Source of the DNA: Acidobacteriaceae bacterium
GTDB lineage: Bacteria > Acidobacteriota > Terriglobia > Terriglobales > Acidobacteriaceae
Assembly (NCBI GenBank): GCA_025462735.1
Contig: JAOAPC010000010.1
Location: 62,001 to 126,000 of the forward strand
Reading direction: 5' to 3'
Length of the DNA stretch: 64,000 bases
Position numbers and translations under genes: made by a program. This document shows, in pieces, positions 10,724-33,548 of the stretch (within the stretch, counting starts at the first letter, position 1; each line of letters opens with the position of its first letter). Under the pieces are notes generated by a model. The model was not told the DNA's origin, ran no database searches, and was given only the letters and a program-made list of their open reading frames with translations.

Positions 10724-10797
10724 TGCCCCCTCGTTCAACGGCAGGACAGCAGATTCTGGATCTGCTTATCGGGGTTCGAATCCCTGGGGGGCAACCA
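10724..10797 (+). tRNA. tRNA-Gln(CTG)
   Basis: All arms can be paired by eye: acceptor TGCCCCC/GGGGGCA; D-stem GTTC/GGAC; anticodon stem GCAGA/TCTGC around TTCTGGA, giving anticodon CTG (reads CAG); T-arm CGGGG-TTCGAAT-CCCTG; discriminator A and encoded CCA. Its 3' half is the integration target of the following island and is repeated, with one G missing, at 33501-33548. Confidence 0.95.
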
Positions 10798-11578: not shown

Positions 11579-12658
11579 TCATTGACGTATCAGTCCTCCC
11601 TTCGGTGCAATCAATTGCAAATTTCCGTCGTAGAACTGGTGCAACACTTCCTCCCTGAGCCGGTCGACTATCCCGTCCTGCAAGGCCTTTGCCATGAGAA
11701 CCTGCAGTTCCAACCACGTTTTCAAGGATAATCCGTACTGATGGGCAAACAGGCGTTGCTCCAGGGAGCGCAACGGCTCGTAGAACAGCTCGCCATGGAT
11801 GCGACCGCCCTCGACAAAAAACAGCGCTTCACCGAGAGTTTTGTGCGGACTCTTGATTTTGTTTTCCTGAAATAGTTCCTTGATGCCTTCGGCCCCATAA
11901 ACACCTTGAGTCAACCGCCTAAGCATAGTCAGCCCCACTCGCGTGTACATGTCGTAGCAGTAGCTGGGAAGATCAAAGAGAGTCTTCGACGGCGGAAGGG
12001 GTGTATCGTCCTGAGTCATTTCCAGCGGTAGCTTCAAACCCAGAAACCGCAACAATCCTGCCGTCCGCCAATCATTCTTCTTCTGCCAGGCCTTCCACGA
12101 AGTCTGCGCTCGCTGCACAGCCTCCTTGTATTCCAAAATGGTCGAAACTGTTGGCCTTTCGCCTGACTCTAGTTCTGGCAGTGTCGAGTTGACTGTCGCC
12201 GCTTCGATGATGCCGCAGCTGCAATAAATCCTGCTACGATTCGCGAGATCACACATTTGTTCCGCCAAAAAGCAAAACAAATCGTAGTTTTTGGTGCCGG
12301 TTGCTTTTGGAGGGAAGACAGCAGCGCAGGCAATTACGAAAGAGGCAAGTACATCATCGCCGGGACCTATATCTTCGCAGGCAATAACGCAGAGGCGTTT
12401 CCAAAAATAGGCGCACTCTTCCGACATACTGTCTATCGCCGAAACGAGTTGAAGGGCAGTGCGCTTGTCACCGCGTCGAATTGATTTCTGGAACGCAGAG
12501 ACCAATTCCCATTTACGTTGTTCCCCAAGCGCGAGACATCTGCTAGGGGGATGATAACCACGCATGCCAAAACATAGAGAAATCCATCTGTCAGATGGGT
12601 TTTCACCCCACCATCGGTGGGGATAGCTAAGCAGTTCCTCGATTTGACGATCAAACAT
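11579..12658 (-). CDS. Orphan MgsA/RarA C-terminal-domain-like protein
   Basis: 359 residues. The segment KWELVSAFQKSIRRGD...CEDIGPGDDVL near residues 50-110 follows the pattern of the C-terminal domain of the MgsA/RarA replication-recombination ATPases (their dLisAfhKSiRgsD and ASEDIGxAD motifs). No AAA+ ATPase with Walker motifs precedes it. The rest, including LFDLPSYCYDMYTRVG and HGELFYEPLRSLEQRLF, is not recognised. Stand-alone versions of this domain occur in phages and islands, so a replication-associated or defence-related role is possible but unproven. Its last codons (LQLIAPKG) contain one copy of the island 14-bp near-palindrome. Confidence 0.55.
   Translation of the reverse strand: MFDRQIEELLSYPHRWWGENPSDRWISLCFGMRGYHPPSRCLALGEQRKWELVSAFQKSIRRGDKRTALQLVSAIDSMSEECAYFWKRLCVIACEDIGPGDDVLASFVIACAAVFPPKATGTKNYDLFCFLAEQMCDLANRSRIYCSCGIIEAATVNSTLPELESGERPTVSTILEYKEAVQRAQTSWKAWQKKNDWRTAGLLRFLGLKLPLEMTQDDTPLPPSKTLFDLPSYCYDMYTRVGLTMLRRLTQGVYGAEGIKELFQENKIKSPHKTLGEALFFVEGGRIHGELFYEPLRSLEQRLFAHQYGLSLKTWLELQVLMAKALQDGIVDRLREEVLHQFYDGNLQLIAPKGGLIRQ
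11606..11619 (-). repeat. Island 14-bp near-palindrome, copy a
   Basis: TGCAATTGATTGCA on the minus strand, inside the 3' end of the 11579-12658 gene. The 31 bases from here (TTGCAATTGATTGCACCG and on) match copy e at 29306-29336 with three differences. Confidence 0.7.
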
Positions 12659-13222
12659 ACTTTCGGTCCCCCTAGGATTGTATGTACTTGAAAAATAAGA
12701 TGTTCTGGGTCGTCTATGGTTGTATTTTTTGTCGGGGATTTAAGTATTTCCGCCATACTGCGAGACGGAGCTCCGCTGGGAGACCACTTGGAAAATTAGG
12801 GTATGCTGGGGTTCATCCTCGACCGTTAACGCCGCCCTGTACTCTCGAAGGGGCCGAGCCTAAAAACGCTGAGAAGACTTCATGACTGAGCAGAGCAAAA
12901 GAAATAAGGTTTCGCGCAGGGTTCTGGCAGATGTCTCTCCGGATGAACTGCCTCTCTTCGCAGACTAGCTGTAGCGGCGGCGGTATATCTGTACCATCCT
13001 CGGTGATTGACACGGCCTGCCCACTACGAACTTCCCCCGCGATGGAGTCGCTTCTTTTATGCAGTGGACGATACAATGCTGTCAAATGGTCGTATCCGCT
13101 TCAGGAACGCCAGGATCCGTCCCTGCTGGCCGACTTCTCGCTTAACGGTCTGTCTGTCTCTTCGACCAAATTTGGCTGCACTGAAAACACCTCGCATTAA
13201 CAAAGGATATTGAGGTTTGTTT
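12659..13222. other. 564-bp stretch with no convincing gene; possible small plus-strand ORF
   Basis: The ORFs listed here on both strands look random. The only candidate with a gene-like sequence is a 28-codon plus-strand ORF at 12882-12968 (MTEQSKRNKVSRRVLADVSPDELPLFAD in two parts: basic start, acidic end). It stops abruptly and could be the 5' remnant of a longer decayed gene. A GAGG ribosome site at the right edge belongs to the 13223 gene. Confidence 0.35.
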
Positions 13223-13690
13223 ATGAACAGTTCAGAAATGATGCAGAAGATCAACGGGATATGTGAGAGGCACGGAATAAAAATTGAGTTTAAAGCGGGC
13301 ACCAATTGCGCCAATCGCCGCGAGAAGAAGGTCTGGATCAAGGAGCTTGCCGACTCAGGAGATTTCGCCGTGGCATTGCACGAAATAGGGCACGCGATGT
13401 GCGATCCGGATAAAGAACCAGCCAGTCGATCGGAACTGCTTGATGCTGAGACAAGCGCATGGAAATGGGCTCTGGACAGCAACAACAATAACTTTGACGC
13501 AGAAGGCTGGAAGAGACTGCATGAAAGCCTGTATCAGTACTACTCCGGTGTCATGGATACCAGCCACCCGGCACACCAGCTGCTGATGAGAGCAGAGGAA
13601 CAAAACGACGCCATTCGACCGCGAGTTTCTAGTTACTTCACAGGCACGATTAAGTTCGGCGGCAAGAGGAACACCAGCCCGAAAAAGTGA
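13223..13690 (+). CDS. Small HExxH putative metallopeptidase
   Basis: Start taken at ATG 13223, with GAGG 7 bases upstream, not the TTG two codons earlier; 155 aa. The zinc-binding motif is in ALHEIGHAMCDPDKE near residue 55 (HExGH, with a following Asp), and SELLDAETSAWKWAL about 20 residues on could give the third ligand, as in ImmA/IrrE-type or gluzincin-like small peptidases. There is no signal peptide. In islands such enzymes often cleave phage or element repressors, but nothing here proves that. It is followed by an intergenic repeat (copy b). Confidence 0.6.
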   Translation: MNSSEMMQKINGICERHGIKIEFKAGTNCANRREKKVWIKELADSGDFAVALHEIGHAMCDPDKEPASRSELLDAETSAWKWALDSNNNNFDAEGWKRLHESLYQYYSGVMDTSHPAHQLLMRAEEQNDAIRPRVSSYFTGTIKFGGKRNTSPKK

Positions 13691-13886: not shown

Positions 13887-15011
13887 TCAAGCAGATTTTA
13901 CGGGGGCAGGCTTCGTTCCACCATGAATGTTACTGCTACTTAGAAGTAAAGTTGCAATATTCGCTCGAGTTTGATTTTTCAGGTCCGTTCCGTCGGGAAG
14001 TGAATCGAGTATTTGTACCACCATTCCAACAGTGTTGATTCTTTCCAGCACAGTCATGAACTCATTTGCCTGGGTTATTGTGGAACGATAAATGACCATG
14101 AATGTTGCACCGATAAACTGAGTGATAATGCCCGAGACGGCTGCGACCATGGTTGTTGGAGTGAATTTCGGCTGGTTAAACGATAGGAATACGCCCCAGA
14201 GAACAAAGCTGAATCCAACAGTCATCACGAACACCGCCACCCAAAACACGAGATTTACTTGGATTAGATTTCTATCGAAGTAGGCCTCGAGTTTGACTCT
14301 CGCGAGATCCCAAGCAAAACGAACTCGCTCAGGATTCGCGTCTGCCTGAGTCTTTGCTTCGACGAATCGCCGTTCACTCCGTTCTCGGGACGCCTTCAGC
14401 CGCTTGTCGGTCCACCAAAACAGCCACGCGACAGTGGCAAATACGCCCAACGAGTAGGCATACGGTTCTAAGATCGTCATAGAACGCGATTGGGACGTAA
14501 TTGGCCAATCGACCGATCCCATTGACATATCGCCGGCATAAAAGCTAAATCTGATCTGGGAGACCGTTGTATCGGCGGCCTTTATTCTTACCGAGGCACT
14601 CTGACTAGTTCCATTGCCGGACATCAAGTGAGTGCTGTCTGTTAACGAGATTTTGGACGGATCTAGAATGGCGTTTCCAGCATCCAGCAAAACATAAATC
14701 CCTTGCGGGGCAACGCCGGGCGTAAAAGTCTTCCAGGAATAAGCGCGCTGAAGAGTAAATTCAAGTGGAAGAACCCGTGATACGGACTCGGTCAGAACCT
14801 CTGGGCACTCGCACTTGATTACTACGTGAATGACTTCGCCTTCGTAAGCAATATCCCCTTGGTTCTGCTGAGATCGAGAGCGAGGATTGTCGCGTCTTTC
14901 AGGCCATATAAGTACTAAGTAAACGCTTAGAGCAACGACGCCAGCGGCGCCAAAAATCCACAAGGTTCTCACACGGGATAGGGTCCAAGGCTTTCGTGTA
15001 CCGCTTGACAT
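13887..15011 (-). CDS. Membrane protein with TRADD-N-associated-type membrane domain
   Basis: 374 residues, start with AAGGAG 7 bases upstream. One N-terminal membrane helix (about 15-35) is followed by a beta-rich extracytoplasmic part (about 50-185), then a helix near YSLGVFATVAWLFWW. Next comes a basic cytosolic segment and a pair of helices (LVFWVAVFVMTVGFSFVLWGVF; TMVAAVSGIITQFIGATFMVIY). The order of an amphipathic helix (ARVKLEAYFDRNLIQVN), the helix pair and TQANEFMTVLERINTVGMVVQIL resembles the TRADD-N-associated membrane domain described by Aravind and colleagues in predicted conflict and cell-death systems. It is the last gene of a three-gene minus-strand module. The homology is by eye; function is inferred only. 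Confidence 0.6.
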   Translation of the reverse strand: MSSGTRKPWTLSRVRTLWIFGAAGVVALSVYLVLIWPERRDNPRSRSQQNQGDIAYEGEVIHVVIKCECPEVLTESVSRVLPLEFTLQRAYSWKTFTPGVAPQGIYVLLDAGNAILDPSKISLTDSTHLMSGNGTSQSASVRIKAADTTVSQIRFSFYAGDMSMGSVDWPITSQSRSMTILEPYAYSLGVFATVAWLFWWTDKRLKASRERSERRFVEAKTQADANPERVRFAWDLARVKLEAYFDRNLIQVNLVFWVAVFVMTVGFSFVLWGVFLSFNQPKFTPTTMVAAVSGIITQFIGATFMVIYRSTITQANEFMTVLERINTVGMVVQILDSLPDGTDLKNQTRANIATLLLSSSNIHGGTKPAPVKSA

Positions 15012-15140
15012 GGTGGCACTCCTTAAGACAAGACCCGCATTGACCCGACAGTCTTTTGCATCAAATAAACTCAGTCAAACCTGGGACTGATCCGCGCGAT
15101 TCCTCAGTGGAACAGAGTACTCGGAATCCGAACGAGTGGA

Positions 15141-15623
15141 CTATAATCCGCCGTCCAAGGGAATATCCCTCTTTCCAGCAGAGGTCACCACCCGAACGAT
15201 CTTTTTTCCGCCATTCGTCTTCAGTTGAATACTTCGAATGTCAAGCCAGAGTAACCCGTGCACAGAGATACCCACAATATCTGTGAAAGCTGGGAGACCG
15301 TCCTCTTTCACCACATTGAAAGTCACTTCCGTTTTAAGTTGGATGCGCGTTCCGTTGAGCACTGATTCAATTTGCTGAACGTTAGTCCAAGCGACTCGGT
15401 TTCCCACTTTTGCGATCTCTTGTACCTTACTCACTAAGTCGGCCAGAGCACCTTCGATTGGAATATCGGACGCGGAGAGCGCCTGTCGGACAGTGCTGCC
15501 AGAAACCCTAACATTGTCGCCCAACGCCGAGAAAAGTTGCGTCACGAGTGAGATCTGATCTCCTGTTGAAGCCTTGGTACGAGAAATGATATTCGTGAGA
15601 TCGTCGACCGAAAGGTCAATCAC
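15141..15623 (-). CDS. Hypothetical protein of the island membrane module
   Basis: 160 residues, starting at GTG with AGAGGG just upstream. The N-terminal half is helical with Ser/Thr-rich turns; the C-terminal half is a run of beta-strands (RIQLKTEVTFNVVKEDG, DIVGISVHGLLWLDIRSIQL, KKIVRVVTSAGKRDIPL). There is no signal or membrane helix. I do not recognise the family. It lies between two membrane-protein genes on the same strand (98 and 129 bases apart), so it may be a soluble partner or sensor of that module. Confidence 0.6.
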   Translation of the reverse strand: MIDLSVDDLTNIISRTKASTGDQISLVTQLFSALGDNVRVSGSTVRQALSASDIPIEGALADLVSKVQEIAKVGNRVAWTNVQQIESVLNGTRIQLKTEVTFNVVKEDGLPAFTDIVGISVHGLLWLDIRSIQLKTNGGKKIVRVVTSAGKRDIPLDGGL

Positions 15624-15721
15624 ATTACCCTCTTATTCGGAGGTGTTGAATCTAACCTCATCATGAATTTAGGCCGTTTATCGCGGCTTGCGAGCTCATC
15701 CAAGTTGAATCCTTGTAGGGT

Positions 15722-16648
15722 CTAGCTCTTGGATGGTTCCTCCAAACTTTTCTCGTGAGGTTTAATCGTCGAGCGAACCACCACTAGCTTATTTAACATG
15801 TCGAACCAAAATGGAGCCCCTAACGACACCGCGCAGGCTGTGATAAGCCACCCCAATAGTGACACCACACCAAAGCCAACCCACCACTTCACATCGTGAC
15901 CGCGACTAATCTTCCAGCCAATGGGCAGTCCATAGCTTTGGAAAGCTTCAATATTGGCCTTAAGTCCTCCGTCCACACCGATCTGCCCCTCTTTCTGCGG
16001 GCGATTAGCCAGATATCCCTGGGTAGCAGAGATCATCGCGTTCCGTTGTGCCTTATGGACCCAGAGATCGTTAGCTATGGAAATCGAATTCACGTTCATC
16101 GCCATAGCCAGTACAAAGCCCAGCACGAAGACGATCATTTGCGAACGGCGCTTATACCAGCCAGAGACACGATCCATGGTGCTATTAAACCAATTCTCGA
16201 CGTTCTCGCGGAACTTATCCACATCATCTCCGGATATATTGAGCATCGTTACCAACGCATCCTTAACTTTGGTGTTCCCAATTTGGGCGATCGCATCACG
16301 AAAGCTGGCGGTCGAGTTTGTCGCGCTTCGGTCAGGCACAAGAAGCCCGAAAATAGCTAAAGCAAAGCTGCGAGATGGAATGTACGACGGTAAGTTTGTC
16401 TTATCAGCAGCTACCGGATCGTAATTTCCCTTGAAAAGGCCGTTGATCATACCATGCTCGTACACCTTTTTAACCAAGGTTGTTCCGTCTGGGTCGTTCA
16501 GCAGCTCGCGAAGACCATTTTCCAAATCGGTTGCACGGTTCTTTAGCCTGCCTTCAATCAGCTCGTTGAGAGCCGAGCAAATCAGACTCAGCAACAAGTA
16601 AGTAAAAATCATACCTAGGGCAACATCGACAATGTCCGAACCAAACAT
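15722..16648 (-). CDS. Integral membrane protein, first gene of the island membrane module
   Basis: The start ATG 16648 (MFGSDIVDVALGMIFTYLLLSLICSALNELIEG) has a strong GGAGGTG upstream; the longer ORF is rejected. 308 aa. The first helix (about 5-27) is followed by a long polar region with NRATDLENGLRELLNDPDG. Further hydrophobic segments are SFALAIFGLLV, SQMIVFVLGFVLAMAMNVNS and WWVGFGVVSLLGWLITACAVSLGAPFWFDMLNKL near the end. Proteins with this opening and ending occur widely in bacteria without known function. It likely starts a three-gene transcript with 15623 and 15011. Confidence 0.7.
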   Translation of the reverse strand: MFGSDIVDVALGMIFTYLLLSLICSALNELIEGRLKNRATDLENGLRELLNDPDGTTLVKKVYEHGMINGLFKGNYDPVAADKTNLPSYIPSRSFALAIFGLLVPDRSATNSTASFRDAIAQIGNTKVKDALVTMLNISGDDVDKFRENVENWFNSTMDRVSGWYKRRSQMIVFVLGFVLAMAMNVNSISIANDLWVHKAQRNAMISATQGYLANRPQKEGQIGVDGGLKANIEAFQSYGLPIGWKISRGHDVKWWVGFGVVSLLGWLITACAVSLGAPFWFDMLNKLVVVRSTIKPHEKSLEEPSKS

Positions 16649-18364: not shown

Positions 18365-18721
18365 ATGGTTCTAATTCGAGTTCCGAAACCGCCTAAGAGC
18401 GCGATCGATCCGAGCCGGCCGGTCAATGCGCTACTAATGGCCCAGGTCATGCATTTGCACTATGCCGAACGAGTCCTTCCTGCGAAGTACCACACGGGCA
18501 TCTACGTCAACGCAATTAAGACTGAGGGCGAAGCCTCGGATTACATTGGCGCAGTTACAGGAGCGATCCACGAGGCACATGCGGCAGCGACGGCTAAACG
18601 TGTTCGGCAAATGCCTAAGCGTCGGCGCCCGATCGAAATTGCCGCGATGGCCGATGGCGTGCCAGCGAAGCGGAAGCCTAAGAAAAAGGCAAGCGTACGT
18701 AAGCAAACGCGAAGCAAGTAG
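18365..18721 (+). CDS. Small basic hypothetical protein
   Basis: 118 residues with GGAAGGAG before the ATG. The first 85 residues look folded (RPVNALLMAQVMHLHYAERVLP, then KTEGEASDYIGAVTGAIHEAHA); the tail is very basic (KRKPKKKASVRKQTRSK) and could bind nucleic acid or polyanions. It lies 57 bases after the phosphoesterase and 19 before an outer-membrane-type protein, so it is part of that operon. Family not recognised. Confidence 0.65.
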   Translation: MVLIRVPKPPKSAIDPSRPVNALLMAQVMHLHYAERVLPAKYHTGIYVNAIKTEGEASDYIGAVTGAIHEAHAAATAKRVRQMPKRRRPIEIAAMADGVPAKRKPKKKASVRKQTRSK

Positions 18722-18740: not shown

Positions 18741-20171
18741 ATGCGCTGGAGTGCGTTATTAGCGTTGTGGTTTACGTCAGCGCTAGCATTCGCTCAAGAA
18801 GGCTGGCTGCACGCGGATTTTCGCCGCGAAAGTGAACGCGTGTCGGACGCGTGCGGAAGTTTCAGCTTTAAAGCCGTGCCGGGATGTGCGATTGAGTTGT
18901 TTACCGATCATCCGCTTCACCTTGTCGCTGGCAGTATGCCGCCGCAGAACGGATTTGGGCTCGGGGGTGCCTTCGTTGCCCAGAGGAACACACCTAATTG
19001 GCGTTTGAGTTTTGATATGGATGCTGCCGGTTCGAACAATGGGTCCTGGCGTGCAGGCGGGTACTTGACCCTGATGCACACGCCGTATGAGCCGATACAA
19101 GTGATCCAGCCTGCGCCTCAGCCGGGGGGGAGTTCGCAGCCAAGCACTTCTCACAAAAAGCCGCGGGTGAATTTGGTTCATCCGTATACGGTCTTTAAAC
19201 TGTACGCGCAGACAATCTCGTTGAACAAATTGAACTACTTCGGGCTTGGCAATGATACGACCTTAGCCGGCGAGTCAGTCTTCGGGATGAACGAAACTAT
19301 CGTTGGCGGAAGCGCCGTTAAGCCAATTTATGAGTTGGGGTCGATCCGGAAACTAAATCTTGCGCTGCTGGGCGAAGTGAATGGGCGCTTTGTGAATCTC
19401 CGTGGCGAAACCGGGCAATCAGCTCCATCGATCGAGGCAGTGTACACAAACGCCACGGCACCGGGGTTGAGCAACCAGCCTGGGTTCGTTCAATTGGGCG
19501 AAGGCGTTCGTATCAATCCGATAATTGGAGATTATCTTGCACTGAATTACGTAGGAAGGTTTCAGCAATTCTTTGCGCCATCGAGCTCGACGAATTCTTT
19601 TCTGCGCTGGACTGTTGATCTTAACCATACCTTTTATTTGTATGGCTACACGAAGTCGGCTCCTGCTAAGACGGATGGAAAGGGCCCCGACGACTGCGCT
19701 CAGAACGCCGGGAACTGTCCGGCGGTTTCGCACTCTCGAAATCGGAACGGCTTCGTTAGCGTGCGTCTGCTGCTTTCGGAATCGATTACCTCGGCAAGAA
19801 GCGCGGTACCATTTTATCTTCAGCAGACGCTGGGAGGACAGGACATCAACAACGAATTGGCACTGGGCAGTTATCGAGACTACCGATTTCGCGCACCGAA
19901 TCTTCTACTCTTACAGGAGAGTTTAGAGCACTCAATTTGGGGTCCGTTTGGACTGAAATTGATGGCTGATGAGGGGCGGGTGGCGCTCACACACGGCGAC
20001 GTTGGGTTCAGCGATCTCAAGCACAGCTTCGCGGGAGGACTCACGCTGCGCGCCGGCGCTTTCCCAATGGTCTCCCTTATGTTCGCGTGGGGCGGGCCTG
20101 AAGGCCATCACAACATTTTCAATATGAACACGTCGCTACTGGGTGGCTCGGCGCGGCCGTCGTTGGATTGA
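18741..20171 (+). CDS. Predicted outer-membrane beta-barrel protein
   Basis: 476 residues with AGGAGG before the ATG and a clear signal peptide (MRWSALLALWFTSALAFAQ). The body alternates short beta-strands and turns, with GFGLGGAFVAQR, YFGLGNDTTL, GNRNGFVSVRLLLSE-like segments and a final FAGGLTLRAGAFPMVSLMFAWG hairpin. The pattern FGLGNDT is seen in surface-antigen/BamA-like barrels, but there is no POTRA domain. With the phosphoesterase upstream it could form an export or surface lipid-handling pair (inference). Confidence 0.65.
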   Translation: MRWSALLALWFTSALAFAQEGWLHADFRRESERVSDACGSFSFKAVPGCAIELFTDHPLHLVAGSMPPQNGFGLGGAFVAQRNTPNWRLSFDMDAAGSNNGSWRAGGYLTLMHTPYEPIQVIQPAPQPGGSSQPSTSHKKPRVNLVHPYTVFKLYAQTISLNKLNYFGLGNDTTLAGESVFGMNETIVGGSAVKPIYELGSIRKLNLALLGEVNGRFVNLRGETGQSAPSIEAVYTNATAPGLSNQPGFVQLGEGVRINPIIGDYLALNYVGRFQQFFAPSSSTNSFLRWTVDLNHTFYLYGYTKSAPAKTDGKGPDDCAQNAGNCPAVSHSRNRNGFVSVRLLLSESITSARSAVPFYLQQTLGGQDINNELALGSYRDYRFRAPNLLLLQESLEHSIWGPFGLKLMADEGRVALTHGDVGFSDLKHSFAGGLTLRAGAFPMVSLMFAWGGPEGHHNIFNMNTSLLGGSARPSLD

Positions 20172-21538: not shown

Positions 21539-22357
21539 ATGAGCGCGACTGCTAACTCGAGCAAACCTTACGAAAGCAACCAAAATCAGCCATGGTCCTC
21601 CGGGCCGATGGAGATTCTCTTGCACGGGATCGAGCTGCTCAAACGCGACAGCGACACCAATCGCCGACTCGCGATACTGAGCATCGACAATGCCGTCGAG
21701 CTGATGATTAAGACTTTTCTTGGCCTTCCTCACCGAGTGACGGGCATCAAACTGAGCAAGAAAGATTACGAGGAGCTCAGCCAGAGCTTTCCCCGTCTGC
21801 TGGATGCTGTTCACGAACTGGCTCCGGACAAGCTCCGAGACTACGACATCTCAGAAATTGAGTGGTTCCATCGTCTTCGTAACGAACTCTACCATCAAGG
21901 CAATGGCCTCACCGTGGAAAGACAAAAGGTTGTCGCTTATGCAGAGATCGCAAGGGGAATCTTCCATCAGTTATTCGGACGTGATCTGCCCATGACCCAC
22001 GAGTCCGCCGACTCAAAGAGCTCGCTTCACGCTGCGATTACACGGCGCGGTGTCGAGCCTTTTTGCGATTCCACGAAAGCGTGGTTCTTCGTTAATTCAG
22101 ATGGTAGGGGCTATTTAGCGGCTACGGCCAATGCAAAGGGTAGTTGCAGCCTTAGAATATTTGACGCGGAGACAGGTGAGTTTTTGAAGAAACAATACAG
22201 TAGAGGCAATTATCAAGAGGCATTTCGAGATTTTCTCAGTGGTTCAACGAAACTTCGAGTTCGATCCCAACCCAATCTCGAACGCGACTGCCGGCCGCAA
22301 CTCCCAACTAATATACTTCACGAATTGAAGGGTCAGTTCCAGCCGCGGAAGTCATAA
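21539..22357 (+). CDS. HEPN-type (RxxxxH) protein, candidate defence or toxin protein
   Basis: 272 residues. The first 150 are helical and include LLHGIELLKRDSDTNRRLAILSIDNAVELMIKTFL and, near residue 118, RNELYHQGNGLTV: the R(N)xxxH motif that marks the active site of many HEPN ribonucleases, in the usual position at the start of the last helix. The C-terminal 110 residues (WFFVNSDGRGYLAATANAKG...FDAETGEF) look like a small beta domain of unknown role. No Shine-Dalgarno is evident and the ATG follows GCTCAGCT closely. It converges with a nuclease-like gene 10 bases away. HEPN membership is by motif only; DUF4145-type relatives are an alternative. Confidence 0.65.
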   Translation: MSATANSSKPYESNQNQPWSSGPMEILLHGIELLKRDSDTNRRLAILSIDNAVELMIKTFLGLPHRVTGIKLSKKDYEELSQSFPRLLDAVHELAPDKLRDYDISEIEWFHRLRNELYHQGNGLTVERQKVVAYAEIARGIFHQLFGRDLPMTHESADSKSSLHAAITRRGVEPFCDSTKAWFFVNSDGRGYLAATANAKGSCSLRIFDAETGEFLKKQYSRGNYQEAFRDFLSGSTKLRVRSQPNLERDCRPQLPTNILHELKGQFQPRKS

Positions 22358-22367
22358 GTTCACGTCG

Positions 22368-23228
22368 TCACGAATGCGGCATTGCGAACGTAGACGGGAC
22401 GCAGCCCTTCGGTGCGATCCCATACTTGAAATCCAAGAATTGCTGGAGATCTCGCGGGACGGACCCACTCAGCTCCTGCCAGGTCACAATCTTGCATCGG
22501 GTTCTGAGGTGGGGAATGCTAATGCACTTCGTGATCGCATACCATGCCTCCGTCAGATCGGGACGACGCCCGTCCACCACTACGCAGAATTCTAGGTTGA
22601 GAGCGTGTGCTGCCAGGACATTGCGGATGAGCTGGTACGACACGTACTTCCCATCGAGTTTCGGCATTGACTTGAGGTCGAATACCTCTGCTAGGTCGCG
22701 ATACGATTCCACCACCCCAGCATCTTTGATCTGAAAGTCGGCTTCAGTCAGCTTTGATTCGACTAGGAGCCCGCCAAGTTTCATGTCCACTTCTGTTCTG
22801 TCAGTCCGCCCCGAGAGAAGTGGAACCCGCGCCTTGTATCCGAACTCAGGAACGTCTCCGCTTTCGACTCCTAGGCTGGAGGTTAAACATTTAATGCTCA
22901 ATGTCGTCGGGTGACAAAAAACATTCATCAACAGGGCGTCCGAACTCATGCAGGAATCAAGTTCTTTCCAGGCTCTTTCGGAGCGGGGCAGAGATCTCGC
23001 TGCCTGGCTATGAATCTTTTCCAACCGGTGATTCCACGATGGCTGGCCGAGAATTGCGGTGTACGTTGCGTCCAAAAAATTGCCATGCCTAACTGCATCG
23101 GGAGATGGTTCATAAACGATGACCGGCATATCTCCATAGCTGGACACGTGCTGCAGCTGCTGAGACGCAGCGTATGCAGCATTCCGGGCACTCAATTCCT
23201 GACGAAGTAAGACTGCATACGCGCTCAT
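22368..23228 (-). CDS. PD-(D/E)XK-type putative restriction nuclease
   Basis: 286 residues. Residues about 138-162 read RTDRTEVDMKLGGLLVESKLTEADFQ in two parts: an Asp in a strand followed by E-S-K in the next strand, which is the PD-(D/E)XK catalytic arrangement. An acidic helix residue upstream and a following alpha-beta pattern (YVSYQLIRNVLAAHA) fit the fold. The overall look recalls the PGN_0703 family of putative restriction endonucleases, but I could not check this. No methyltransferase is next to it. It runs tail to tail with the HEPN-type gene, so the two may form one defence cassette or be chance neighbours. Confidence 0.6.
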   Translation of the reverse strand: MSAYAVLLRQELSARNAAYAASQQLQHVSSYGDMPVIVYEPSPDAVRHGNFLDATYTAILGQPSWNHRLEKIHSQAARSLPRSERAWKELDSCMSSDALLMNVFCHPTTLSIKCLTSSLGVESGDVPEFGYKARVPLLSGRTDRTEVDMKLGGLLVESKLTEADFQIKDAGVVESYRDLAEVFDLKSMPKLDGKYVSYQLIRNVLAAHALNLEFCVVVDGRRPDLTEAWYAITKCISIPHLRTRCKIVTWQELSGSVPRDLQQFLDFKYGIAPKGCVPSTFAMPHS

Positions 23229-23579: not shown

Positions 23580-25067
23580 TCAATTTTGTGCTGCCATTTG
23601 TTCTAGAACAAGCGGTTTGGCCGTTCCATCAAAGTAGCGTTGCGCCCGATCCCAGGCCTTCTGGCCGACTAGGCGTCCCAGTTGACGACCCGCAAGATCA
23701 GCGCGCCTAAAATGGATGCCACCGTAGCGACGGGACATTCCGGCTTCATCCGCTGCATCGGAAAAAGTACCCCACTGAAGCGTCACAAGGCGCTTTGGCG
23801 TGATTCCTGGCTCAATTTTCGAACTTCCTGTCGGAACAGTTACTGAGTAGCCGAACCGATCACTTTTCGTCCATGCCGCTAAGATTGTCGCGGCTGCCGC
23901 GCTGTAGGTGCTCTGGCCCGACACATAGTCGGGAAACGGCGGCGTAGGAAACGTTGCTGCCTGATACGGAATCCATTGCGAGCCGTCCATGTCTACTGTG
24001 CCCTTTCCTGGGCCTCCCCAAGCGCGAATCTTTTTGCCGCTTAACAAAAATGGGATTGCAGTCGCCGGGCGGACCGAGTCGAAGGCGCGCTTCATGTCCC
24101 AGGCGGCAATACTGGAATCGAGAATCGCATTGCTCAGCGCGAAGAACATTTCCACGTCGTCATCGAACGTATGATGGTCACGCGCTGAGACCCACTGCGC
24201 AAACATCATCCAATGGCCGAGGAGCTGCTCCGAGTCCGGTTCGTCCGACCAGTATTCAGAAATCATCTTCTCGCGGTCGGTCAGATTCGCGTTGATTTGA
24301 ACTAATTCCTCTGCTTGCTGTTGATATTCGTCTGATCCGTAAGTCGCCGGGCCGAGCTTTTCCGCGATCGAACGAAATTCATCCCCTTTTGCGAGCGCGA
24401 ACGGAGTTACATCGCACCACTGTGCTCCCGAGAACATCTGGGTTGCAAAGTCTCCGGTAGAATTAACGAAGATCAGCGGCTGCCAGTGATTCATATCGAC
24501 AGGATGAATGACCGGCAGCTTAACTGGAAAAGGAATTGGCATGTTGACCGGCCGGTAATGTGTCCAATCTGAGTAAGCGCCTTGCGAAAGATCGCCCAGC
24601 TGATTGGATTTGTCGTGATGGCGAAATTCGAGCACCGCTCCACAGGCGACATTTCCTATTCCTGTTGGGGTCTCAATATCGGTTGAGTCATCCTTCCAAT
24701 CGTATCCAAGCCGTTTCATTAGCGGCTTGTAAAGCGATTCGGTATCCGATGGAAGCACATCAATTAGCGCGCGATATGACGCGTAGCTGATCGCTTTGTC
24801 TTTGTTCTCTAAGGTTTGCTCAGATTTTGGGCGGCGAAGGGCTCCACTCAGTTGTGTACCAATTGCGCGTTCGTCGTAAGCAGCCCACGCGTCATACATG
24901 CAGGTGTGCACAATTGCGAGTGCCCGGGCAACGATGGGTGCGCCTAACTTTGAGTCGCGGACGCCCTGCAGTGCAACATTGTCCCACTGCACTGCCGTAT
25001 TGTCCTTCGGCAGAGCATACACCATTCCTGCGGTGCTGATCACAAGAGATATCCAGAAGTGTTTCAT
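23580..25067 (-). CDS. Secreted vanadium-haloperoxidase/PAP2-like protein
   Basis: 495 residues with a short signal peptide (ISLVISTAGMVYA). It has the vanadium haloperoxidase layout: an N-terminal helical half and a C-terminal half with KRAFDSVRP (the KX6RP oxyanion motif), PDYVSGQSTYSAAAA in the place of PSGH, and SRRYGGIHFRRAD in the place of SRX5HXXXD. The His of SGH, the acid-base residue in chloroperoxidase, is Gln here, so halogenating activity is uncertain; a phosphatase-like or altered activity is possible. Its ATG overlaps the stop of the upstream gene (ATGA), so it is translationally coupled to it. Confidence 0.85.
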   Translation of the reverse strand: MKHFWISLVISTAGMVYALPKDNTAVQWDNVALQGVRDSKLGAPIVARALAIVHTCMYDAWAAYDERAIGTQLSGALRRPKSEQTLENKDKAISYASYRALIDVLPSDTESLYKPLMKRLGYDWKDDSTDIETPTGIGNVACGAVLEFRHHDKSNQLGDLSQGAYSDWTHYRPVNMPIPFPVKLPVIHPVDMNHWQPLIFVNSTGDFATQMFSGAQWCDVTPFALAKGDEFRSIAEKLGPATYGSDEYQQQAEELVQINANLTDREKMISEYWSDEPDSEQLLGHWMMFAQWVSARDHHTFDDDVEMFFALSNAILDSSIAAWDMKRAFDSVRPATAIPFLLSGKKIRAWGGPGKGTVDMDGSQWIPYQAATFPTPPFPDYVSGQSTYSAAAATILAAWTKSDRFGYSVTVPTGSSKIEPGITPKRLVTLQWGTFSDAADEAGMSRRYGGIHFRRADLAGRQLGRLVGQKAWDRAQRYFDGTAKPLVLEQMAAQN

Positions 25068-32148: not shown

Positions 32149-33351
32149 CTACCGGGTTCCACCTTCGAGAATGTCACCAAAAAGATTGGTAGCGTCGCGT
32201 TGCGCTTCGTCTGCCACATGAGCATACCTCCACGTAGTTTGAGGTTGCGTATGCCCGAGCAGCTTGCCCACTACCTGCAACGAAATTCCGTTTGATACGA
32301 GCTGACTCGCATAGGTATGCCGTAGATCGTGAATTCGTAATGTAGGCCGGTACTTGTACACCGTCTTTCGGCGTTTGCCCTTTTTAGTCTCGATGTTGAC
32401 CAGGCCTGCAGCTTTGCAGACTTGCAGCCACGGACGCCAAACAGTTACACGGGACTCATGTTTATTCGTCCCAGGGAAGAGTGGACCATCTGCAACCTTG
32501 GGCTTCATCTCATGGAGTAGCTTCAGTGCGGGCGCACTTAACGGAACGTGTTCGATGCGCTTTTGTTTTGTGTGATGACTAGGCTTCGTCCAAACACCCC
32601 GCTCTAAGTCGAACTGTGCCCACTCAGCTCTTAACACTTCGCTCGCCCGCGCACCAGTGAGCATCAACAATCGGAGTGCGTTTGCTGGTCGTCGATCTGG
32701 ATAAGAGTCGAGGGCGAGGTTAAATCGCCGCAGTTCTTCAACGGTGAGCCATCTCTCGCGCCGGTCTTCATGAAAGCGAGGAACGCCCCGGGCTGGATTG
32801 TGCTCACACCATCCCCACTCGTTCGCCAGGGAGAACATCTTGGATAATAGAGACAGCATGCGGTTCGCATGGTACGGAGTTCCCTTGAGTGACGCGTGCA
32901 AAGATCCGATATCCCTTTTCCCGACCCCTGCCAATCTTAACCCGCCGATCCGTGGCTGAATAATGTTCTGGATGATCTGCCGGTCATTCCGAACACTGGA
33001 AGGCCGTTTGTGAGTGACTGCATAACGATCCAGGTACTGTGAAGCCAAATCTGCGACGGTCGGTTCTGCCCGTCGTTGTTCGCGGTCCTCGAGCGGATCG
33101 GAACCATCGGCTATCGCCCCCCTCAACTGTAACGCTCGCTGCCGCGCGGCCGCGGCGCTTAGCTCTGGATGACGGCCAATCGTGAATCGCCGCTCCCTTC
33201 CGTGGATGTGATAGTTAATAATGAATGAAACCACGCCCCCGGAAGTAATGCGCACGCCAAAGCCCGGGATTTCCTTGTCATATTGAATGCGGTTACCCTT
33301 TGCTGGCAACTGAAGCTTTGCAATCATCTTTTCAGTGATCTTGTCTGCCAT
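32149..33351 (-). CDS. P4-type tyrosine integrase
   Basis: 400 residues, the normal length. The N-terminal DUF4102-like domain is KGNRIQYDKEIPGFGVRITSGG and FTIGRHPELSAAAARQRA. The core-binding domain follows to about residue 190. The catalytic domain has Arg in LTGARASEVLRAEW, HDLRHTYASQL, LLGHTQPQTTWRYAHV (active Tyr in WRY). All catalytic residues are present, so the enzyme looks functional. It would recombine the tRNA-Gln 3' end. A tandem GTGTCCGT repeat lies 5 bases before the ATG and overlaps the likely promoter, which suggests self-regulation by integrase binding (inference). Confidence 0.95.
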   Translation of the reverse strand: MADKITEKMIAKLQLPAKGNRIQYDKEIPGFGVRITSGGVVSFIINYHIHGRERRFTIGRHPELSAAAARQRALQLRGAIADGSDPLEDREQRRAEPTVADLASQYLDRYAVTHKRPSSVRNDRQIIQNIIQPRIGGLRLAGVGKRDIGSLHASLKGTPYHANRMLSLLSKMFSLANEWGWCEHNPARGVPRFHEDRRERWLTVEELRRFNLALDSYPDRRPANALRLLMLTGARASEVLRAEWAQFDLERGVWTKPSHHTKQKRIEHVPLSAPALKLLHEMKPKVADGPLFPGTNKHESRVTVWRPWLQVCKAAGLVNIETKKGKRRKTVYKYRPTLRIHDLRHTYASQLVSNGISLQVVGKLLGHTQPQTTWRYAHVADEAQRDATNLFGDILEGGTR

Positions 33352-33500: not shown

Positions 33501-33548
33501 CAGATTCTGGATCTGCTTATCGGGGTTCGAATCCCTGGGGGCAACCAA
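33501..33548 (+). repeat. attR: partial tRNA-Gln copy, right end of island
   Basis: Repeats the tRNA-Gln sequence from the anticodon stem to CCA plus one further base. It lacks one G of the acceptor strand and has no 5' half or promoter, so it is not a gene. Confidence 0.93.

Follow-up and report, generated by a model that had tools for sequence, protein, structure and literature searches.

A family of predicted inner-membrane proteins encoded ahead of varied leaderless enzymes, and its pairing with a soluble protein on an acidobacterial integrative island

An integrative island in an Acidobacteriaceae bacterium encodes a protein, here called A, that is an inner-membrane protein by predicted topology and belongs to a family that has no model in Pfam or NCBIfam. 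In relatives of A, the next gene downstream often encoded an enzyme, drawn from one of many families and nearly always leaderless, while on the island itself this slot was filled by a soluble protein, B. The interpretation favoured here, tentatively and as somewhat short of an even chance, is that A acts as the constant inner-membrane partner of a variable, leaderless effector that damages the envelope or proteins, with B as a candidate for the downstream slot and a third gene, C, as a probably independent neighbour. A probably controls or exports enzymes that cut the cell wall or membrane lipids.

Within the window (i.e., the whole 64,000-nucleotide stretch of DNA that was analysed), genes A (15722–16648, 308 aa, start ATG 16648), B (15141–15623, 160 aa, start GTG 15623) and C (13887–15011, 374 aa, start ATG 15011) were all found to be real open reading frames with plausible starts, and all three lay on the minus strand, as the preliminary description had it. 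The genes did not overlap; A and B were separated by 98 bp and B and C by 129 bp, the latter gap holding a ribosome-binding site belonging to C. Promoter and terminator scans of the locus gave results at chance level. The mobile island that had been proposed around these genes was borne out in full: it is complete, spans approximately 22.8 kb (10750–33542) and uses a tRNA-Gln(CTG) gene (10724–10797, plus strand) as its attachment site. It is bounded by a perfect 42-bp direct repeat that copies the 3' half of this tRNA, with the left copy inside the tRNA gene (10750–10791, plus strand) and the right copy at 33501–33542 (plus strand), and it encodes a tyrosine integrase with an arm-binding domain (32149–33351, minus strand; PF00589, E = 5e-25).

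Several other genes were recorded on the same island. The region 21539–23228 contained a REase-ARP nuclease on the minus strand (PF22558, E = 2e-40) and, convergent with it, a gene whose 272-aa product has an R-x4-H motif (RNELYH) and a HEPN-like appearance; the two are a candidate defence or toxin pair. A 359-aa protein (11579–12658) bore a weak likeness to part of RarA/MgsA (PRK13341), without a match to the AAA ATPase, and a 157-aa protein with weak likeness to M78/IrrE metallopeptidases (13217–13690) adjoined gene C on the opposite strand. A vanadium chloroperoxidase-like protein, whose start resembles a signal peptide, was encoded at 23580–25067; in plasmids of Agrobacterium and Paracoccus, an A relative likewise had a gene for a vanadium haloperoxidase just upstream of it.

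Hydropathy analysis identified three hydrophobic segments in A, in agreement with its earlier description as an integral membrane protein. The AlphaFold2 model was confident (pLDDT 89, pTM 0.80) and showed three transmembrane helices, the first and second of them separated by a helical domain some 130 residues long; by the positive-inside rule, this domain would be cytoplasmic. The motif GAPFWFDMLNK fell, in the model, at the start of the helix that follows the third transmembrane segment, and an alignment of 49 family members contained 15 invariant columns, which included nearly all of this motif. Members of the family produced no credible match in Pfam, and no relative of A was found in the PDB, either by sequence or by fold. 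More generally, searches of Pfam, NCBIfam, PHROGs and PADLOC with A, B and C returned nothing convincing apart from a single domain in C (PF20712, see below). In PADLOC, A had a weak similarity to BrxC (E = 0.007), and none of A, B and C convincingly matched a listed anti-phage system protein. A limited search of the literature outside subscription journals found no paper on the family. It had been claimed that the partner proteins of C belong to no known system; for A this stands, but its relatives point towards a partnership with envelope hydrolases and not towards systems built on TRADD-N domains.

Relatives of A were identified in genome contigs (62) and in 13 plasmid records, where those that were annotated were labelled simply 'hypothetical protein'. 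They were present in 27 of 396 Acidobacteriota genomes (approximately 7%), and their hosts further included Bacteroidota, Chloroflexota, Proteobacteria, Cyanobacteria and several candidate phyla. There were no matches to A in phage records and none to A, B or C in viral contigs, and a phage origin was rejected on these grounds.

The gene following A was co-directional among A relatives and frequently overlapped or abutted the stop codon of A (-4, -1 or +1 bp). The hydrolase families encoded at this +1 position comprised cell wall enzymes (N-acetylmuramoyl-L-alanine amidase, muramidase, GH25 and M15 carboxypeptidase), enzymes of lipids or proteins (S8 subtilase, patatin, Tle1-like lipase, zinc-dependent phospholipase C and PF04185 phosphoesterase), as well as YdjC, SIR2 and metallophosphoesterase. 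Across 72 non-redundant A loci, enzyme families were observed at +1 in 20 of 70 cases, compared with 0 of 288 positions at least four genes away (p = 6e-16), and when the loci that had donated queries were removed the values were 10 of 60 at +1 and 1 of 328 at least three genes away (p = 4e-8); for these values, the query families were chosen once the neighbours had been seen and the control positions came from the same A loci. A separate Pfam tally of near and far genes agreed with the enrichment at +1, and genes far from A were housekeeping genes. At about half of the A loci the +1 gene encoded nothing recognisable as an enzyme, and some A genes adjoined housekeeping genes, for example frr (L185, L186). 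Nearly all of the A-linked enzymes lacked an N-terminal hydrophobic leader in hydropathy analysis. Some partner classes, for example a phospholipase effector and subtilases, also occur among the defence proteins in PADLOC. In the cassettes examined, no neighbouring gene was recognised as a marker of a secretion system.

Where the next gene encoded an amidase, the A proteins had a C-terminal tail in common, which includes DEDLP and terminates close to GG (L045, L046, L047, L048, L049, L050, L054, L067, L079 and L102). Because this tail was carried by amidase-linked A proteins alone, it suggests a matched physical partnership. Among the enzymes themselves, a subtilase (L101:8916-10010) and a GH25 protein (L098:9556-10461), both encoded downstream of A, had similar N-terminal modules of the form WY.D...YYW(S/A)GG, suggesting a common adaptor fused to differing catalytic domains; by eye, the YdjC enzyme in L086 has a similar N-terminal module.

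On the island, B occupies the slot directly downstream of A. Three relatives of B were found. In the first (G353), B and A were adjacent and intact, with 51% identity for A and 34% for B, although B lay upstream of A; in the second (G189), the order was as in the window, with a frame-broken, decayed A followed by B. A and B are thus a genuine pair. The third instance (G343) was an RHS-repeat protein (L042:2641-4110) whose C-terminal end is a B-like domain, in the position of the cargo in polymorphic toxins. B and C had no relatives on plasmids. B contained no hydrophobic segment, in keeping with its prior description as soluble, whereas the further description as beta-rich applied in part: the C-terminal half is strand-like and the N-terminal half looks helical, while a single-sequence structure model was discarded as too poor (pLDDT 40). 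A PADLOC match of B to ZorA was weak (17.5 bits, E = 3.5e-4) and lay over a helical stretch, and a link with Zorya was rejected. B may be an unusual effector or an adaptor; since obvious catalytic residues were not found, B is just as likely to serve for binding or as an adaptor.

Divergent from A in the window is an operon of three genes, all on the plus strand, encoding a leaderless, phospholipase C-like phosphoesterase (PF04185, 17090–18307), a 118-aa protein of no family (18365–18721) and a 476-aa protein, also of no family, with a signal peptide-like start (18741–20171). This operon was conserved and lay less than 1 kb from A in four genomes (the window, G353, G190 and G021), being divergent from A in three, the window included, and in tandem with it in one; seven further genomes had the operon without A. 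In two of these PLC-linked loci, a large multi-spanning membrane protein of 1224 and 1452 aa, respectively, was encoded directly downstream of A (L041:3731-7405 in G353 and L177:466-4824 in G190), in the place that B and C take in the window. These two proteins were 27–30% identical over parts, had a long N-terminal region that appears extracytoplasmic and are possible sensors; they had no detectable relationship to C.

Under the favoured interpretation, the helical domain and the C-terminal tail of A would bind the matching leaderless effector on the cytoplasmic side of the inner membrane, and A would either let the effector reach the periplasm, in a holin-like or export-like manner, or restrain it until a trigger arrived. 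Damage to the wall or membrane by the effector would then kill either the cell that made it or one nearby. On the island described here, B would be the candidate cargo or adaptor and the divergent operon, with its leaderless PLC-like enzyme, a second partner. The partnership of A with effectors is supported by the polarity of the gene pairs, their overlap, partner swapping and the matched tail. The enrichment at +1, the leaderless nature of nearly all the enzymes, the confident model of A, the recurrence of the A–B pair, the PLC-like operon next to A in four genomes and the B-like domain found where an RHS protein would carry its toxin also speak for the interpretation. Against it, A resembles no known holin, transporter or PDB fold and was not found in phage records. 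Further points against it are the A loci with no enzyme recognised at +1 or with housekeeping neighbours, the choice of query families after the neighbours had been seen, the lack of obvious catalytic residues in B, the upstream position of B in G353 and the seven genomes with the operon but no A. Physical interaction, direction of control, toxicity and biological purpose belong to the interpretation, as distinct from the genes, the A family, the linkage statistics, the predicted topology and the island, which are results. A broader proposal was considered rather unlikely: that A defines a conflict or lysis module of a class not described before, present across many phyla, in which it delivers or gates interchangeable leaderless effectors that destroy the envelope, and that B represents a new type of effector domain also used by RHS toxins.

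Two other explanations of the same linkage have a real but small chance of being correct. The first is that A is an immunity or gating protein that shields the producer's membrane and wall from the toxic hydrolase encoded beside it, in the manner of interbacterial toxin–immunity pairs. It accounts for A being a membrane protein, for partner classes that coincide with those of interbacterial toxins, including the Tle1-like lipase and amidases, and for the B-like domain on an RHS protein. Immunity proteins are, however, normally specific to one toxin, while a single conserved A family accompanies unrelated enzymes; moreover, A is encoded ahead of the enzyme rather than after it, and the cassettes examined had no visible secretion-system marker. 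The second explanation, similarly improbable, is that A serves envelope remodelling or membrane organisation in general, anchoring wall and lipid enzymes during normal growth, and plays no part in conflict. Partners that act on wall and lipids would be expected of such a protein, and the position of some A genes next to frr is consistent with it. Yet the patchy distribution of A among acidobacterial genomes, its carriage on plasmids and islands, the decayed copies and the swapping of partners argue instead for an accessory role with fast turnover.

Gene C had been singled out in the preliminary description, from sequence alone, as encoding a TRADD-N-associated membrane domain, and a profile search confirmed this: residues 248–314 matched CyanoTRADDas_TM (PF20712) across positions 2–67 of the 68 in the model (E = 6.5e-15; score 55.4 bits, cut-off 24.3). 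Hydropathy showed one N-terminal hydrophobic segment and a pair, giving a layout of an N-terminal transmembrane segment, an extracytoplasmic domain and the two-helix CyanoTRADDas_TM domain. A single relative of C was found in 100 related genomes (G045, L029; 38% identity, 223 aa); it matched PF20712 more strongly (72.2 bits, E = 3.7e-20), lacked the extracytoplasmic domain and had neither A nor B nearby. PF20712 matches in five other Acidobacteriota genomes were rejected for their low scores, the ORFs inspected resembling shadow frames or unrelated membrane proteins. The genes of the island that were scanned contained no TRADD-N domain, caspase, EACC/EACC2, STAND NTPase or further known partner from conflict systems, and a bacterial TRADD-N system was rejected, the membrane domain alone being present.

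It had also been suggested that A, B and C form one module, a proposal to be given up if the three genes never occurred together elsewhere. The outcome went against it: the A–B pair recurs (in G353, and with a decayed A in G189), C was never found with it, and no homologue of C was found near some 90 other A loci or by a profile search of the collected A and B loci. That the three genes constitute a single defence or cell-death system built on the TRADD-N-associated domain of C is therefore very unlikely, despite the common strand, short gaps, mobile island, true CyanoTRADDas_TM match and the two other A loci in which a large receptor-like membrane protein follows A in a position comparable to that of C, given that C was found with A or B nowhere else, the one relative found stands alone, no TRADD-N, caspase or NTPase partner was seen in the genes scanned, and C is set apart by the 129-bp gap and its own ribosome-binding site. 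C is probably an independently acquired two-helix membrane protein, separate from A and B.

Should A export or gate leaderless enzymes that cut wall and lipids, it would add a family to the few membrane proteins able to move folded enzymes that have no signal peptide; alternatively, it would represent a new modular killing or suicide device on islands and plasmids. Either would assign a function to proteins annotated in plasmid records as 'hypothetical protein' and nothing more. The proposal for A is testable, as the simplest cassettes consist of two genes, often overlapping, and GAPFWFDMLNK provides a clear signature.

Among known systems, holin–endolysin cassettes and Type 10 secretion combine a holin with a peptidoglycan hydrolase (PMC9527704, PMC5778951, PMC10109510). 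The likeness lies in a membrane protein encoded beside leaderless wall hydrolases (amidase, muramidase, M15, GH25), an arrangement seen among A relatives and not at the window locus, where the slot holds B. A differs in its size, which far exceeds that of the usual holin, in its large cytoplasmic domain, and in being paired with lipases and proteases also; no holin family or phage relative of A was found in Pfam, PHROGs, phage records or viral contigs, and there were no spanin genes alongside. The described bacterial TRADD-N systems are defined by the TRADD-N domain and by caspase, EACC and STAND components (PMC8195603, PMC7159879). C shares the CyanoTRADDas_TM domain with them, and the A cassettes share their logic of a constant component with variable effectors, but the genes scanned contained no TRADD-N, EAD, caspase or STAND NTPase, and A and B have no counterpart there. 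The SLATT proteins, predicted pore-forming effectors with two transmembrane helices (PMC7159879), resemble C in its pair of helices flanked by amphipathic helices; C differs in its additional extracytoplasmic domain, and the Pfam scan did not match it to any SLATT profile. T6SS and RHS toxin–immunity cassettes employ the same enzyme classes, and a B-like domain is found at the tip of an RHS protein, but here one conserved partner family, A, serves unrelated effectors, and no secretion marker was seen beside the cassettes examined. The constant component A is absent from the profile libraries searched, while the logic of pairing a constant component with a variable effector is itself known from other conflict systems.
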